Source: Chromatiales bacterium (GTDB lineage Bacteria; Pseudomonadota; Gammaproteobacteria; Chromatiales; Chromatiaceae). Taken from it: a stretch of 64,000 nt of DNA. This document shows, piece after piece, positions 1,779-51,443 of the stretch; position 1 is the stretch's first letter, and every line of letters starts with the position of its first letter. The notes under the pieces are model-generated. The model did not search any database and was not told the DNA's origin. It saw only the letters and a program-made list of their open reading frames with translations. The translations under genes and the position numbers were made by a program. The stretch is taken from contig JAQYVO010000225.1 in assembly GCA_030145425.1 (NCBI GenBank), positions 1-64,000 on the forward strand, written 5' to 3'.

Positions 1779-1823
1779 CTTTTTTACCGGCTCCTCCCCT
1801 GATGAAGTGAGTAGATTACTATT

Positions 1824-1895
1824 GTAGGGTCGAATTCATTCGGCCAAGGTTGGATTCGAATCAACCAGTTGTTGGCCGAATGAATTCGGCCCTAC
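1824..1895. repeat. Paired REP-like hairpins, locus 1
   Basis: Two inverted copies of a short palindrome (1824-1847 and 1872-1895) separated by 24 bp. Each arm is itself a hairpin of the form GGYCGAAT-TC-ATTCGRCC flanked by GTAG on the outside. The left arm mixes the two forms (GGTC with GGCC, a G-U pair in RNA); the right arm is the GGCC form. The sequence just upstream (gtagattactatt) matches the flank at the other loci near 12.5, 38.2 and 61 kb, so the whole unit is dispersed. Confidence 0.9.
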
Positions 1896-1985
1896 AGTTC
1901 TGGTGTCGGACGGAATACGTTTTAATCGTAAATGTTGATTTACCCGCTCAATCAGGAGAAGAGCGTTTTTACCAATCACATCGGC

Positions 1986-17978: not shown

Positions 17979-19484
17979 ATGACTAAAGAAATATTGCTGG
18001 TCGTAGATGTCGTATCCAACGAGAAGGACGTCGACAAAGATACTATTTTCGAAGCCATTGAAGCGGCCCTGGCATCGGCAACCCGCAAGAAACATGGTGG
18101 TGAGATGGATGTCAGGGTGACGATAGACAGAGAGACTGGCGATTATGTCAGTGTCCGGCGCTGGGAGGTCATCGAAGAGCCGGACGAGGAAGAGGGCTTC
18201 CAGCCCGAAAGGCAGATCATGCTGGAGGATGCACAAAAGCAGGATGCTGCGCTGAATACCGGGGATTTCATAGAGGAACCCATGGATTCCATAGCCTTCG
18301 GCCGGATAGCCGCCCAGACCGCCAAACAGGTCATAGTGCAGAAGGTCAGGCAGGCCGAACGCGCCAAGATCGTGGAGGCCTATACGGAGCGCGTGGGCGA
18401 GCTGGTGACCGGGGTGGTGAAGCGGGTCGAGCGCGGCAACGTGATTCTCGACTTGGGCGGAAATGCCGAATCCATCATACTCCGGGAGGAAATGATCAAT
18501 AGGGAATCGGTTCGCAACGGCGACCGGATTCGCGGGCTGCTCTACGATGTTCGCCCCGAGCCCCGTGGCCCCCAGCTTTTTGTCAGCCGCGCGCGGCCGG
18601 AGCTTCTGATCGAACTGTTCAAGCTGGAGGTGCCCGAGGTGAGCGAGGGGCTGATCGAAATCATGGGCGCAGCACGTGACCCGGGGCTTCGGGCCAAGAT
18701 CGCCGTACGCAGCAATGACCAGCGGATCGATCCAGTGGGAGCCTGCGTGGGCATGCGCGGGTCACGGGTTCAGGCGGTATCCAACGAACTCAACGGTGAG
18801 AGGGTGGACATCATTCTCTGGAATAATACGTCTGCCCAGTTCGTGATCAACGCCATGTCACCCGCCGACGTCGTTTCCATCATCGTGGACGAGGAGAGCG
18901 AAAGCATGACCGTCGCGGTGACCGAGGAAAATCTCTCACAGGCAATCGGTCGTGGCGGGCAAAACGTGCGCCTGGCCAGTGAGTTGACCGGCTGGGAACT
19001 CAATGTCATGAACGAGGAGGATGCGTCCGCCCAGAGCGAGGCCGAATCCCATAGCCTGGTCGAGAAATTCATGGCCCACTTGGATGTGGACGAAGAGGTG
19101 GCATCCATCCTGGTGCAGGAGGGATTTTCGACCCTGGACGAGGTTGCCTATGTTCCAATCAGCGAAATGCTGGATATCGAAGAGTTCGATGCGGAAATCG
19201 TGGATGATTTGCGCAGCAGGGCAAAGGAAGTACTGCTGACCCGGGCCATCGCCACGGAAGAGGCACTCTCGGACGAAAAACCCGCCGATGATCTGACCAG
19301 TATGGAAGGTATGGATGAAAGTATCGCCCGACAGCTTGCCAGTCGCGGCGTGATTACCATGGAGGGTCTGGCGGAGCTGGCCGTGGATGAACTCATGGAG
19401 CTCGAGGATATGGATGAGGAGCGGGCAGGGCAGCTGATCATGACAGCGCGCGCCCCGTGGTTTGTGGACGAACAGCAGGGTTAG
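17979..19484 (+). CDS. nusA: Transcription termination/antitermination factor NusA
   Basis: A 501-residue RNA polymerase-associated protein. Order: N-terminal polymerase-binding domain (1-125, with ALASATRKK), S1 domain (about 135-200, [21 protein letters not shown]), two KH domains (about 200-345, including [14 protein letters not shown] and [17 protein letters not shown]) and two acidic C-terminal repeats (about 360-500, containing LVEEGF-type [15 protein letters not shown] and [14 protein letters not shown]). This two-repeat form is typical of gammaproteobacteria. Confidence 0.97.
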
Positions 19485-39071: not shown

Positions 39072-40079
39072 ATGAGCGCCAATGACCTCCTTTCACAAGA
39101 TGAGATCGATGCCCTACTGCACGGGGTAGACAACGGGGCCGTCGAGGCCGATGAGGCCGATCAATTCGATAATGATACCCGCTCCTACGATTTCGCCAGT
39201 CAGGATCGTATTGTCAGGGGCCGGCTTCCCACCCTTGAGATGATCAATGAACGCTTTGCAAGGCACTACCGCACCAGCCTGTTCAATATGCTGCGAAGGT
39301 CCGCGGATCTTTCCGTATCCGGCGTGCAGATGGTCAAGTTTTCCGAGTTCGTACACAGTTTGTTCGTTCCCACCAGCCTGAACATGATTCGGGTTCCGCC
39401 CCTGAAGGGCAAGGGTCTCTGCGTCCTGGACCCAAAGCTGGTGTTCTGCGTAGTCGACAATTATTTTGGCGGCACCGGCCGCTTTCATACAAAAATCGAA
39501 GGTAGGGATCTCACGCCCACGGAACAGCGCGTGGTCAGGATACTGCTGGATCTGGCCTTCGTGGACCTCGAGCAGGCCTGGAAGCCGGTGATGGATCTTA
39601 AGTTCGAGTATGTGGGCTCAGAGGTTAATCCCCAGTTTGCCAATATCGTCAGCCCCTCCGAAGTGGTTGTGATTACCACGTTTCACATCGAACTGGAGTC
39701 GGGTGGGGGCGATATGCACGTCTGTTTGCCCTACTCAATGGTGGAACCCATTCGCGATCTGCTGGATGCGGGTGTACAGAGTGACCGCGGTGATCGTGAC
39801 GAACGCTGGGAGCAGTCCCTCAGGGAAGAGATTCTGGAAGCTGAGATCGAGCTGAGCAGCATGCTCACCGAGACTCAGATCTCTATGAGAGACCTGGCGC
39901 AGATCAAACCGGGCGACATCATTCCCATAGACCTTCCGAATACAGTGGAAGGTTTTGCCGCCACCGTTCCGGTGTTTCAGGGAACCCTTGGAGTTTCGGA
40001 AGGGAAGTACGCCATCAAGGTGCGGGAATGGAACAAACGAGGGACAGGGGAAGGTCTCAAGAAGCTGATCGGAAATTGA
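39072..40079 (+). CDS. fliM: Flagellar motor switch protein FliM
   Basis: A 335-residue switch protein of the C-ring. The N-terminus MSANDLLSQDEIDALLHGV is the CheY-P binding helix, kept intact (the LSQDEIDALL motif) even though no cheY is intact in this window. The middle domain has GRLPTLEMINERFARHYRTSL and the C-terminal domain a SpoA-like fold with MRDLAQIKPGDIIPID. Length is normal. Downstream fliN follows after 96 bases. Confidence 0.96.
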   Translation: MSANDLLSQDEIDALLHGVDNGAVEADEADQFDNDTRSYDFASQDRIVRGRLPTLEMINERFARHYRTSLFNMLRRSADLSVSGVQMVKFSEFVHSLFVPTSLNMIRVPPLKGKGLCVLDPKLVFCVVDNYFGGTGRFHTKIEGRDLTPTEQRVVRILLDLAFVDLEQAWKPVMDLKFEYVGSEVNPQFANIVSPSEVVVITTFHIELESGGGDMHVCLPYSMVEPIRDLLDAGVQSDRGDRDERWEQSLREEILEAEIELSSMLTETQISMRDLAQIKPGDIIPIDLPNTVEGFAATVPVFQGTLGVSEGKYAIKVREWNKRGTGEGLKKLIGN

Positions 40080-47374: not shown

Positions 47375-48248
47375 AGCATCATTGGATCAAGCCGCGGGTT
47401 TGCGCCGCATGGTCAAACCGGAGCCTGTGCGGGTGATAGCCGTAACGGGCGGCAAGGGCGGCGTCGGCAAGACCAACATATCCGTGAATCTGGCTGTTTC
47501 CCTGGCGGATCTCGGCAGACAGGTGATGGTGCTGGATGCAGACCTGGGTCTGGCCAACATCGACGTGGCGCTGGGGCTTCATCCGGAACGCAACCTTTCC
47601 CACGTACTGCGCGGCGAGTGCGAGCTGAGCGAAGTGGTGCTCAGGGGCCCTTCAGGCATCATGGTGGTGCCGGCGGCATCGGGGGTTCAGCAGATGGCCG
47701 AACTCAGCGCCGCCGAGCATGCGGGCCTGATCCGCGCCTTCAGTGATGTGGGCGCAGAGTTAAACACCCTGATTATCGACACGGCAGCCGGCATTTCGGA
47801 CAGCGTCATCAGCTTCAGCCGTGCCGCCCAGGAAGTGGTCGTGGTGGTGTGTGACGAGCCGGCTTCCATTACCGATGCCTATGCGCTGATCAAGCTATTG
47901 AACCGGGAATATGACGTGGATCGCTTCCGGATTCTTTCCAATATGGCGCGCTCGGCCCAGGAGGGCAGGGATCTTTTCAGTAAGATTTGTCGGGTAACCG
48001 ATCAATACCTGGATGTCATGCTCAGCTACATGGGCAGCATCCCCTACGACGACACCCTGCGCCGGGCCGTGAAGACCCAGAAGTCCGTGGTACAGGCGTT
48101 TCCACGCAGCCGGTCGGCGCAGGCATTCAAGAATCTGGCGAAGAAGGCCGATAACTGGCCGGTACCTGAAGGGGCCGGTGGCCACCTCCAGTTCTTCGTC
48201 GAAAGGCTTATTCAATTTTCTAGTCAGCCCGGGGAGATGGGATGGTGA
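47361..48248 (+). CDS. flhG: Flagellum number regulator FlhG (FleN), MinD-like ATPase
   Basis: A 295-residue MinD-type ATPase that limits flagellar number. The N-terminal DQAAGLRRM is the motif that activates FlhF GTPase; the deviant Walker A is GGKGGVGKTNISVNLA, with VLDADLGLANIDVALG and LIIDTAAGISDSV. The start at 47361 is preferred because GGGAGG lies about ten bases upstream; GTG 47349 and ATG 47367 are alternatives. It overlaps flhF by 14 bases and fliA by 7. Confidence 0.95.
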   Translation: MLMSEASLDQAAGLRRMVKPEPVRVIAVTGGKGGVGKTNISVNLAVSLADLGRQVMVLDADLGLANIDVALGLHPERNLSHVLRGECELSEVVLRGPSGIMVVPAASGVQQMAELSAAEHAGLIRAFSDVGAELNTLIIDTAAGISDSVISFSRAAQEVVVVVCDEPASITDAYALIKLLNREYDVDRFRILSNMARSAQEGRDLFSKICRVTDQYLDVMLSYMGSIPYDDTLRRAVKTQKSVVQAFPRSRSAQAFKNLAKKADNWPVPEGAGGHLQFFVERLIQFSSQPGEMGW

Positions 48249-48982
48249 ACGGATTAGCAACCTACAACGCAGTTCAGGAGCAGAGTGCCGAAGTATTGGT
48301 GGCCGAGCATGCATCACTGGTGAAGCGTATTGCTTATCACCTGGTGAACAGGCTGCCGCCAAATGTCCAGGCGGATGACCTTATCCAGGCCGGTATGATC
48401 GGCCTGCTGGAGGCCAGCCGCAACTACGATCCAAGCCAGGGTGCCAGCTTCGAGACCTATGCCGGTATTCGCATTCGTGGCTCAATGCTCGACGAGATCC
48501 GCCGCAGCGACTGGACACCCAGATCGGTCCATCGCAAGGCACGGATGGTGGCCGAGGCAATGCGGGACATCGAAAACGAAGAAGGCCGCGATGCCCGCGA
48601 TGTGGAGGTGGCGGATGTGCTGGGCATGTCCCTGCGTGACTACCACAAGATACTTCAGGATGCCTCAGGCTGCAGAATTTTCAGCCTGGAGGAACTGCAG
48701 TCAGTCGGGGAACTGCCACAGGAACGGAAAGACGGTGCCATCAGCGGTCCGTTCGAAGGGATGCAGCGCGACATGTTCAAGAGTGAGCTCTCCGAGGCCA
48801 TCGCCGGCCTGCCCGAGCGGGAGCGACTGGTCATTGCCCTCTATTACGACAAAGAATTAAATCTGCGGGAGATCGGGCATGTGCTCGGTGTCAGTGAATC
48901 ACGGGTATGCCAGATCCACAGCCAGGCTACTTTGCGCCTGAGATCCCGGCTCTCTGAATGGCTGTCTGAGGGACCTGAATAG
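48242..48982 (+). CDS. fliA: Flagellar sigma factor FliA (sigma-28)
   Basis: A 246-residue sigma factor for late flagellar genes. Region 2 reads LVKRIAYHLVNRLPPNVQADDLIQAGMIGLLEA and YDPSQGASFETYAGIRIRGSMLDEIRRSDW; region 4 reads IAGLPERERLVIALYYDKELNLREIGHVLGVSESRVCQIHSQA. Complete. In related genomes cheY, cheZ, cheA and cheB follow directly; here a short stub and then motC follow. Confidence 0.97.
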   Translation: MVNGLATYNAVQEQSAEVLVAEHASLVKRIAYHLVNRLPPNVQADDLIQAGMIGLLEASRNYDPSQGASFETYAGIRIRGSMLDEIRRSDWTPRSVHRKARMVAEAMRDIENEEGRDARDVEVADVLGMSLRDYHKILQDASGCRIFSLEELQSVGELPQERKDGAISGPFEGMQRDMFKSELSEAIAGLPERERLVIALYYDKELNLREIGHVLGVSESRVCQIHSQATLRLRSRLSEWLSEGPE

Positions 48983-49000
48983 TTCTTTGAAGGAAAAATC

Positions 49001-49090
49001 GTGTTGACAGCTGTTTTAGACAAGGGCATGAAGATCCTCATCCCAGACTACCGCTTTTGCGGGGGACTCCCCCAACGCCTGGAATGGTGA
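49001..49090 (+). pseudogene. cheY: Probable cheY remnant (29 codons)
   Basis: Between fliA and motC a GTG-started frame with AGGA upstream reads LTAVLDKGMKILIPDYRFCGGLPQ and stops at 49090. DKGMKILI matches the beginning of gammaproteobacterial CheY proteins (MDKxMKILIVDD...), at exactly the place where cheY is expected. After eight matching residues homology ends, consistent with a deletion joining cheY to sequence near motC. The match is short, so a chance resemblance cannot be excluded. Confidence 0.55.
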
Positions 49091-49096
49091 TCTGAG

Positions 49097-49834
49097 ATGG
49101 ACTATCTAAGCATTCTTGGCATCACAATCGCTCTGGGTGCCATCCTCGGCGGAAACATGTTGGAGGGTGGTCATCTCGATGCCCTGGTAAACGGTCCGGC
49201 CCTGGTGATCGTATTCGGCGGCACCATCGGTGCGGTCATGCTGCAGACACCCTTGAGCATATTTCTCCAGGCCCTGCGCCTTTCGGGAAAGGTCTTCCGG
49301 CCCGAGAAATTTCTACCCGATCAGGCGATCGGGAAAATGGTCGAGTGGAGTAACGTGGCGCGCAGGGAAGGCCTGCTGGGTTTGGAGAATGCCTCAGAGG
49401 CTGAGAATGACCTGTTCATCCGCAAGGGCATGCAACTGCTGGTGGACGGCAGTGAACCGGAGGTCATCAGGAATATTCTGGAAGTGGAGCTGGATATCCA
49501 GGAACAGCAGGACGTACAGGCCGCGAAGGTGTTCGAGGCCATGGGCGGGTACTCGCCAACCATCGGCATCATCGGTGCTGTTTTGGGACTTATCCACGTG
49601 ATGCAGAACCTGGCGGATCCCAGCAAACTGGGCAGCGGCATCGCGACGGCCTTCGTTGCCACCATATACGGTGTCGGCCTTGCCAATCTGTTTCTACTGC
49701 CCTTCGGCGGCAAGATGCGCACCCAGGCCCGGGAGAAGGCAAGTTACCGGGAGCTGGTTGTGGAGGGCATCGTGTCCATCGCCGAGGGCGAAAACCCGCG
49801 CTATATAGAGACCAAGCTTCAGGGTTACCTCTGA
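49097..49834 (+). CDS. motC: Flagellar stator protein MotC (MotA family)
   Basis: A 245-residue stator subunit of the MotA family, close to MotC of the Pseudomonas fliA-che-motCD cluster. Helices: DYLSILGITIALGAILGGNMLEGG, ALVIVFGGTIGAVM, PTIGIIGAVLGLIHVMQNL and GIATAFVATIYGVGLANLFLLPF, with the cytoplasmic loop between. It would couple ion flow to rotation with MotD. A 16-bp dispersed repeat lies between it and motD. Confidence 0.94.
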   Translation: MDYLSILGITIALGAILGGNMLEGGHLDALVNGPALVIVFGGTIGAVMLQTPLSIFLQALRLSGKVFRPEKFLPDQAIGKMVEWSNVARREGLLGLENASEAENDLFIRKGMQLLVDGSEPEVIRNILEVELDIQEQQDVQAAKVFEAMGGYSPTIGIIGAVLGLIHVMQNLADPSKLGSGIATAFVATIYGVGLANLFLLPFGGKMRTQAREKASYRELVVEGIVSIAEGENPRYIETKLQGYL

Positions 49835-49856: not shown

Positions 49857-50690
49857 ATGGCGCGCAGAAAACGGCATGAGGAACAGGAAAACCACGAGCG
49901 CTGGCTGGTCTCCTATGCGGATTTCATAACGCTGTTGTTTGCGTTCTTCGTGGTCATGTATTCCATTTCGTCCGTAAATGAAGGCAAGTATCGGGTGTTG
50001 TCCAGTACCCTCACGGGGGCATTTGTTACGCCGGCCCAAAGCCTGGATCCCATTCAGATAGGCGAACAGGTGCGCACCCAGATGCCGGTATCCGGTGAAT
50101 ATGCTGCACCGGAAGCCCGACCAGAGAATCTCAACCCACCTACAATCAATGAGACGGTTCAGGACGAAAAGCCTCCTGTAACGGCTCCCATAACAGGAAA
50201 GCCCCTGGCGGCGGTGGAAGAGGAGCTGATTGATAATCTCAGCGGCTTCATTGACAAGGATCTGGTCTCGGTCAATCGCACGGAGCGGGGTATCGAGGTG
50301 GAAATGAAGAGCAAGATGCTGTTTCCCAGCGGCAGCGCCCGTCTCTCCCGGGATTCATTGAATGTTCTGAAAGGGATGGCGGAGATCATAAAACCCCTGC
50401 CCAACCAGATTCGCGTGGAGGGCCACACCGATAACGTGCCCATCAAGACTGTCAGCTTTCCTTCAAACTGGGAGCTGTCGGCGGCACGTGCGGCCAGTGT
50501 TGTCCACCTCTTTACACGCTATGGTGTCGATTCCGGCCGCATGGCCGCCACCGGCTTTGGCGAGTTTCGCCCCATCACAGACAACGACCAGGAGGAGGGG
50601 AGGCAGAAAAACCGCCGGGTGGCGATGGTGATTTTGGCCGGGGAGCATGAGCGGATGCTGGAAAACTTCTCTGGAAAGAATGATAACTGA
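49857..50690 (+). CDS. motD: Flagellar stator protein MotD (MotB family)
   Basis: A 277-residue stator subunit: N-terminal helix HERWLVSYADFITLLFAFFVVMYSIS with the ion-binding Asp, a periplasmic linker, and an OmpA-like peptidoglycan-binding domain with RVEGHTDNVPIKT, NWELSAARAASVVHLF and GRQKNRRVAMVILA. Pairs with MotC. In related genomes parA-like and cheW genes follow; here the next 164 bp are non-coding. Confidence 0.94.
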   Translation: MARRKRHEEQENHERWLVSYADFITLLFAFFVVMYSISSVNEGKYRVLSSTLTGAFVTPAQSLDPIQIGEQVRTQMPVSGEYAAPEARPENLNPPTINETVQDEKPPVTAPITGKPLAAVEEELIDNLSGFIDKDLVSVNRTERGIEVEMKSKMLFPSGSARLSRDSLNVLKGMAEIIKPLPNQIRVEGHTDNVPIKTVSFPSNWELSAARAASVVHLFTRYGVDSGRMAATGFGEFRPITDNDQEEGRQKNRRVAMVILAGEHERMLENFSGKNDN

Positions 50691-50854
50691 AGGTTCGGGA
50701 TACGCTGCAGATTTCAGGCACGAAACGTGCATTAATTATTTAAAATACTTTTATCGTCCAAAACTTGACGCTGTAAAACCGGATTGATTGGCGCCTTACA
50801 TCCATATCAGGCGCAGGGCAGGGGGGCTGTTAAAGACCTGCCGGGAGAAAAACG

Positions 50855-51025
50855 ATGTCCGAAATCAGTCAACCCACATCCATAAAGCCTATCTGGCCCA
50901 CGCGCAGGGAGCAGGCTCCGACAAAGCGCCGGCCAACCCAGCGCAAGGATGAAGGACAAGAGAGCGAGGGGCAGAAAAAGGAATCGCGCGATGGTGACAG
51001 ACATGTGGTGGACGATTATGCCTGA
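50855..51025 (+). CDS. Small hydrophilic protein linked to flagellar/chemotaxis genes
   Basis: A 56-residue, very charged protein (MSEISQPTSIKPIWPTRREQ... ending HVVDDYA). It has a good ribosome-binding site (GGGAG, seven bases spacing) and overlaps the next gene by 8 bases. Small proteins with an IKP-x-P start and a final V/I-D-D/E-Y-A appear beside motility genes in related bacteria as I recall them, but I cannot verify this. No function can be given. The basic, Gln-rich middle suggests a disordered protein. Confidence 0.6.
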   Translation: MSEISQPTSIKPIWPTRREQAPTKRRPTQRKDEGQESEGQKKESRDGDRHVVDDYA

Positions 51026-51443
51026 TAGCGCTGACACAGTCTGGATCCTGACTGCGGCGTTCGCTGTGGTGGCAGTGGTTACCTTGCTGGGGATGGCCAT
51101 GACCATCCGGCTGCAAAGCCGGAAGCTAACAGAGCTTAGGGAAGGTATCCATACACTCGGTGCGGACTTCAATGCGCTTTGCTCCGGCGCCACGGGTGTG
51201 GATCGGCGCATTTCCCGGCTGGAGAGGCAGGGATTGGATCTCGGTCACCGCCAGGAGACCCTGGAGAATCAGAGACAGACCGGAGACATGCCGTACGGGG
51301 AAGCCATACAATTGGTACAGAAGGGTGCTTCTGCGGAGAGGCTGGTCGAAGAGCTCGGTCTCAGTCAGGGCGAGGCCGAACTGGTCATGTTGTTGCACGG
51401 GATGAAAAAAGAGGACGCGGCCTCTGTCATGGCCGGGGGTTGA
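51018..51443 (+). CDS. DUF2802 protein at the end of the motility cluster
   Basis: A 141-residue protein with an N-terminal membrane helix (VWILTAAFAVVAVVTLLGMAMTI), a coiled-coil middle and a C-terminal helix-turn-helix-like part, YGEAIQLVQKGASAERLVEELGLSQGEAELVMLLHG, the DUF2802 signature. This family closes the fliA-che-mot cluster in Pseudomonas and relatives, which supports the view that the chemotaxis genes between have been lost. Start at 51018 gives an 8-base overlap; 51003 is possible. Confidence 0.82.
   Translation: MPDSADTVWILTAAFAVVAVVTLLGMAMTIRLQSRKLTELREGIHTLGADFNALCSGATGVDRRISRLERQGLDLGHRQETLENQRQTGDMPYGEAIQLVQKGASAERLVEELGLSQGEAELVMLLHGMKKEDAASVMAGG

Follow-up and report, generated by a model that had tools for sequence, protein, structure and literature searches.

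Stepwise loss of the flagellar chemotaxis genes in a Chromatiales genus and the probable takeover of motor control by a different chemosensory system

The Flagellar Locus and its cheY Relic

The stretch of DNA analysed here (the window, 64,000 nucleotides of contig JAQYVO010000225.1, assembly GCA_030145425.1) carries on its forward strand fliA, encoding sigma-28 (48242..48982; Pfam Sigma70_r2/r3/r4), followed by the flagellar stator gene motC (49097..49834). These two genes form the borders of a first deletion, and the interval between them spans exactly 48983-49096, i.e., the 114 bp given by the first-pass annotation. The conserved che order on which that annotation relied is borne out by the relatives, since cheY-cheZ-cheA-cheB lie between fliA and motC in 54 of the 64 related loci possessing both border genes. 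None of the four is present between fliA and motC in the window, where a cheY stub stands alone in the 114-bp gap.

The gap contains, as had been reported, a short open frame of 29 codons (49001..49090, forward strand), which opens with a GTG at 49001, closes with a TGA at 49088-49090 and, according to its translation, joins a cheY start to an unrelated tail. It is preceded by a plausible ribosome-binding site (GAAGGA, 48990-48995), and the TTG at 49004 is the counterpart of the cheY start of relatives. Positions 48985..49041 (forward strand) were aligned to the fliA-cheY start of locus L010, which is the fliA–motC locus of the nearest sibling genome, G001, assigned to the same genus. Identity extends over 48 of the 57 columns with a score of 66; 300 shuffles averaged 16.3 and never exceeded 22. 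In the sibling, the matched segment is the beginning of a full-length cheY, comprising its ribosome-binding region and initial codons; the stub peptide LTAVLDKGMKILI matches the sibling CheY LEAALDKGMKILI, and homology ends at about codon 13-15. Because the alignment lies far above the shuffle maximum, this segment, which comprises the ribosome-binding region and the first ~13 codons, is a real relic of cheY, and the resemblance to a CheY N-terminus noticed at first pass reflects homology. The tail joined to this relic (49042..49096, forward strand, 55 bp) reaches the motC start and can fold into a GC-rich stem-loop just before it (-20.6 kcal/mol, z -2.0). No origin was found for the tail, and no match above chance, in the sibling gap, the che genes of relatives, cheB ends or the repeats of the genome's own contigs; a weak match to locus L023 was equalled by 5 of 200 shuffles and is not significant after seven comparisons.

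The deletion is double and hence larger than originally proposed. Downstream of motD, the second stator gene (49857..50690, forward strand; 87% identical to L010, dN/dS 0.13), the usual order in most relatives is motD, parC, parP, cheW, a small gene and a gene encoding a DUF2802 protein, with a distance from motD to the DUF2802 gene of ~2.3-2.8 kb, as compared to 326 bp in L010. In the window, the interval that parC-parP-cheW occupy in relatives (~2.3 kb) has collapsed to 50691..50854 (forward strand), and neither these three genes nor any remnant of them was found in the 164 bp before the small gene. With respect to the F6 flagellar cluster of polar-flagellate gammaproteobacteria (fliA-cheY-cheZ-cheA-cheB-motC-motD-parC-parP-cheW-DUF2802), the window thus retains, in the same order, the genes that flank both che intervals, together with the cheY relic, whereas all seven signalling genes are gone and the small protein, the DUF2802 protein and the motor genes stay.

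The small gene (50855..51025, forward strand) encodes a conserved protein of 56 aa, PTSIKPIWPTRR ... DDYA, also present in L010, G002 (the third genome of the genus) and L013. The motif PT(S/P)(I/V)KPIWPxRR lies close to its N-terminus and DDYA closes the sequence; no Pfam or NCBIfam family was matched, and both the genus and Sedimenticola relatives have retained the protein even after loss of all che genes. Its gene overlaps the start of the DUF2802 gene (51018..51443, forward strand; Pfam PF10975), the right border of the second deletion, which still adjoins motD in L010, L023, L048 and L078, all lineages with che loss at this locus. DUF2802 proteins are usually listed beside chemotaxis genes; their persistence after che loss suggests that they, and with them the retained small protein, serve the flagellum and not the chemoreceptor array.

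Regarding the motor itself, FliA is 97% identical to its sibling counterpart (dN/dS 0.03) and MotC 93% identical (dN/dS 0.06). Across the flagellar genes of these two che-less siblings dN/dS ranges from 0.03 to 0.13, and the flagellum is therefore under selection; stators, FliA, FlhF and FlhA are all retained. FliM (39072..40079, forward strand; Pfam FliM) has also kept its N-terminal CheY-binding segment, MSANDLLSQDEIDALLHGV, in agreement with the first-pass reading.

Intermediates of the Loss in the Genus and Among Relatives

Three genomes, all metagenome bins, represent the genus: the window genome (91% complete), G001 (82%) and G002 (96%), which form a single clade with 100/100 support. 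G002 possesses fliA-cheY-cheA-cheB-motC and motD-cheW-small gene-DUF2802, lacking cheZ, parC and parP, while the G001 locus is reduced to fliA-cheY-motC, with motD followed by the small gene and the DUF2802 gene. Searches across G002 (loci L158 and L159 included) and G001 found no CheZ. Together with the alignment of the stub to the sibling cheY, these intermediates support the deletion between fliA and motC: the relatives display a full cheY history rather than a 114-bp gap that never held the gene.

The number of chemoreceptors varies in the genus, with 13 in G002, one in G001 and three in the window genome, compared to 11-15 in most complete relatives. In G001, only a Pil-Chp-type receptor and kinase were found (in a genome 82% complete), and non-chemotactic swimming may fit this sibling. 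Its CheY (L010, 9601-9996) is an orphan, with no flagellar CheA in the genome, and has 21 residues absent from all 62 related CheYs compared, including D13G, F14Y, S15A, T16A, N59K, M60L and A88T. D13G and N59K sit in the acid pocket; the phosphoacceptor D57 and the FliM-facing residues are retained. Such a protein would be decaying, or perhaps phosphorylation-independent.

Similar losses occur beyond the genus. The set cheZ, cheA and cheB has been lost in 6 of the 64 loci, three of which retain cheY alone; cheZ alone is missing in two loci and cheB alone in two others. At least six independent whole losses are required on the tree, the window genus included. A second clade with 100/100 support repeats a similar progression, L015 lacking cheZ, parC and parP, and L023 having cheY alone plus part of cheW. 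Relics of a cheB start (L048, 4253-4370 region) and of a cheW end (L023, 5386-5600) show that these two intervals were deleted independently in other lineages as well. From these few events, cheY would tend to be the last gene lost.

An Alternative Chemosensory Cluster on Contig C59

The first-pass annotation had proposed that motility had become non-chemotactic or that the signalling genes had moved elsewhere. CheW and receptor searches of the window genome returned two clusters, on contigs C314 and C59; an F6 CheA or ParP/CheW turned up in no part of this genome (91% complete). The C314 cluster is of the Pil-Chp type (type IV pilus class) and occurs in all three genus members. It resembles C59 in having CheW, a receptor and CheA, along with a ChpC-like protein, and differs from it by a 1804-aa ChpA-type kinase and by having no cheY-cheZ pairing.

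Contig C59 (24.5 kb) encodes on one strand a hybrid CheA, a CHASE3 receptor, CheW, a second receptor with PilJ and zinc-binding CZB domains, CheB, CheR, a second CheY, an HDOD protein and CheX. The hybrid CheA comprises Hpt, dimerisation, ATPase, CheW and receiver domains. On the opposite strand, divergent from cheA, lies a cheY-cheZ pair, and the cluster adjoins no second motility locus. The paired CheY is 78% identical to the flagellar CheYs of relatives, lies just above the NCBIfam flagellar CheY cut-off (189.5 versus 189) and has an intact acid pocket (D12/D13/D57), T87, K109 and FliM-facing Y106/V108. Its partner CheZ scores 213 bits against a Pfam cut-off of 30.7, falls under the E. coli-type NCBIfam cut-off (153 versus 257) and retains both the catalytic Gln segment, QDLTGQVI, and the CheY-binding end, DDLLSSLGF.

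The array encoded on C59 fits neither the F6 nor the F7 class: its CheA is only 36-40% identical to F6 CheAs and its receptors are longer than 40H, and it has neither cheD nor the gene order published for F7. Indeed, the receptor hairpin arms measure ~197-203 residues from HAMP to tip, compared to 140 in G002 receptors, i.e., ~9 heptads more than 40H, giving receptors of ~58H length. Owing to this difference, these receptors are not expected to be part of the same array as receptors of the 40H class. No orthologue of the C59 CheA was found among 91 related genomes, where the best match has ~40% identity, and a donor search extended to plasmids and to another 368 genomes of the class yielded no more than ~36-38% identity.

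Assignment of C59 to the window genome deserves attention, as does the deletion itself, since the relevant genomes are all metagenome assemblies and contamination is estimated at 2.7%; loss of the che block by misassembly, or C59 being a contaminant, would turn the observations into artefacts. This we regard as highly improbable. Both intervals are collapsed in the independent sibling record L010, the stub remains in place, and searches of the whole window genome brought up no F6 CheA or ParP/CheW. Moreover, the base composition of C59 is inside the range of the other contigs of the genome. Copies of its repeat at 18158-18428 occur in more than 40 further contigs, including that of the window (1823-1964), and in G001, and the genes on its two sides have counterparts in G002 and G001 that are 77% and 84% alike. 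With composition, common repeats and flanking genes all matching, C59 is part of this genome. The repeat family has members of ~60-270 bp, whose reading frames yield peptides such as GPNSFGQ and NEFDPTV. In G001 and G002 the genes flanking the cluster have other neighbours, and an empty site could not be defined.

On how the cheY-cheZ pair reached C59, the CheY and CheZ trees do not discriminate between acquisition and relocation. The F6 pair could have relocated within the genome to a place beside an older second array, with the remainder of the F6 cluster being deleted. Relocation of F6 cheY and cheZ is the published route in the F7 takeover (PMC7184735), and the AU test does not reject a grouping of the C59 CheY with the CheYs of the genus (p 0.60). 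We nevertheless consider this account doubtful, for a native cheY still follows fliA in the sibling and its stub does so in the window, which makes the C59 cheY an extra copy; neither G002 (96% complete) nor G001 yielded a CheZ; and the C59 CheZ groups with L082, from another genus, with support of 96-98, on long branches. A closer kinship of the C59 cheZ, with the Sedimenticola type, is likewise not rejected by the AU test (p 0.13). Given the native cheY of G001, the window stub and the finding of no other CheZ in the genus, acquisition is the simpler account, and the pair would have been acquired from outside the genus rather than relocated. Replacement also fits better than relocation because the C59 CheA, receptors and CheW differ in kind and are without orthologue in relatives. 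Accordingly, of the proposal that the signalling genes had moved elsewhere, one half stands, such genes being present on C59, and the other does not: with a CheA lacking an orthologue in the relatives, they are not simply the old genes in a new place.

Probable Replacement of the Signalling System and its Significance

Starting from the observed deletion, its living intermediates and a C59 cluster with intact active-site and FliM-binding residues, we consider it probable that an F6 cluster was eroded and that a different chemosensory system then took over CheY/CheZ control of the motor. An ancestral F6-type flagellar cluster would have been lost stepwise in the genus, with cheZ, parC and parP disappearing at a first step, cheA, cheB and cheW at a second, together with most chemoreceptors, and cheY at a third, leaving a 13-codon stub and a retained flagellar motor. 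In the present-day cell, the C59 receptors would drive the hybrid CheA, which would phosphorylate the adjoining CheY; CheY-P would in turn bind FliM of the window flagellum and CheZ would reset CheY. Motility, phosphotransfer from this CheA to CheY and motor control are all predicted here from sequence features.

A cell that swims without chemotaxis, with the C59 array serving another output such as biofilm, c-di-GMP or development and cheY-cheZ idle or used otherwise, is the other reading to be weighed. Hybrid CheA proteins with a receiver, CheX and HDOD proteins, all encoded on C59, are common in clusters with non-flagellar outputs. The C59 cluster also has its own second CheY, transcription of cheY-cheZ runs away from cheA, and full loss with a retained motor does occur in the genus (sibling G001). 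We find this reading unlikely for the window genome, however: CheZ is the flagellar CheY phosphatase, both CheZ and CheY of C59 retain their functional residues, and an intact pair divergent from cheA in a genome whose native pair has been lost is difficult to account for unless it controls the motor. Upstream of the C59 cheA, a sigma-28-like site (score 10.75) weighs in the same direction, weakly; elsewhere, 17 sites of at least 10.5 occur in 240 kb, which leaves it suggestive only. Of the two outcomes first envisaged, non-chemotactic motility is thus not favoured here, and signalling genes situated elsewhere come nearer, in the form of a cheY-cheZ pair and cluster on C59.

Among known systems, the nearest parallel comes from the gamma- and betaproteobacteria leading to E. 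coli, where an F7 system took over F6 outputs and F6-type cheY and cheZ outlive the F6 cheA, cheB and receptors (Ortega et al., 2020, PMC7184735). The likeness lies in a second class associated with F6-type cheY/cheZ, in the loss of the F6 kinase and in CheY R26K, a substitution in the expected direction at a published partner-switch site (PMC7184735), which is found in the C59 copy and in none of 62 relatives. R26K is consistent with a partner switch, though weakly; it was rejected as proof because, as a single match among ~5 changes at near-invariant sites, it may arise by chance. In contrast to the F7 takeover, C59 is without cheD and the F7 order, and has CheX, HDOD, a hybrid CheA, ~58H receptors and a divergent cheY-cheZ. 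A cluster on an Azospirillum plasmid (NZ_CP029833) similarly brings together a hybrid CheA with receiver, CheW, CheY, CheB and CheR, but the two kinases share only ~36% identity over 69% of CheA, and no cheZ, CheX or receptor is annotated in that cluster.

On a more specific proposal we are evenly divided: that this is a recent and independent takeover, in which an array neither F6 nor F7, with ~58H receptors and a hybrid CheA, came with or recruited an F6-type CheY-CheZ after a stepwise and repeatable erosion whose intermediates persist in sister species. Among the papers searched on chemotaxis loss with retained flagella, none dealing with the genus or family was found. Deep comparisons had led to the inference of a switch of the flagellar motor between chemosensory classes in the ancestry of E. 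coli. Here a similar class switch appears to be recent; intermediates are still living in one genus, a parallel pair occurs in another, and it can therefore be tested directly in what order the genes were lost and which changes CheY needs to accept a new kinase.
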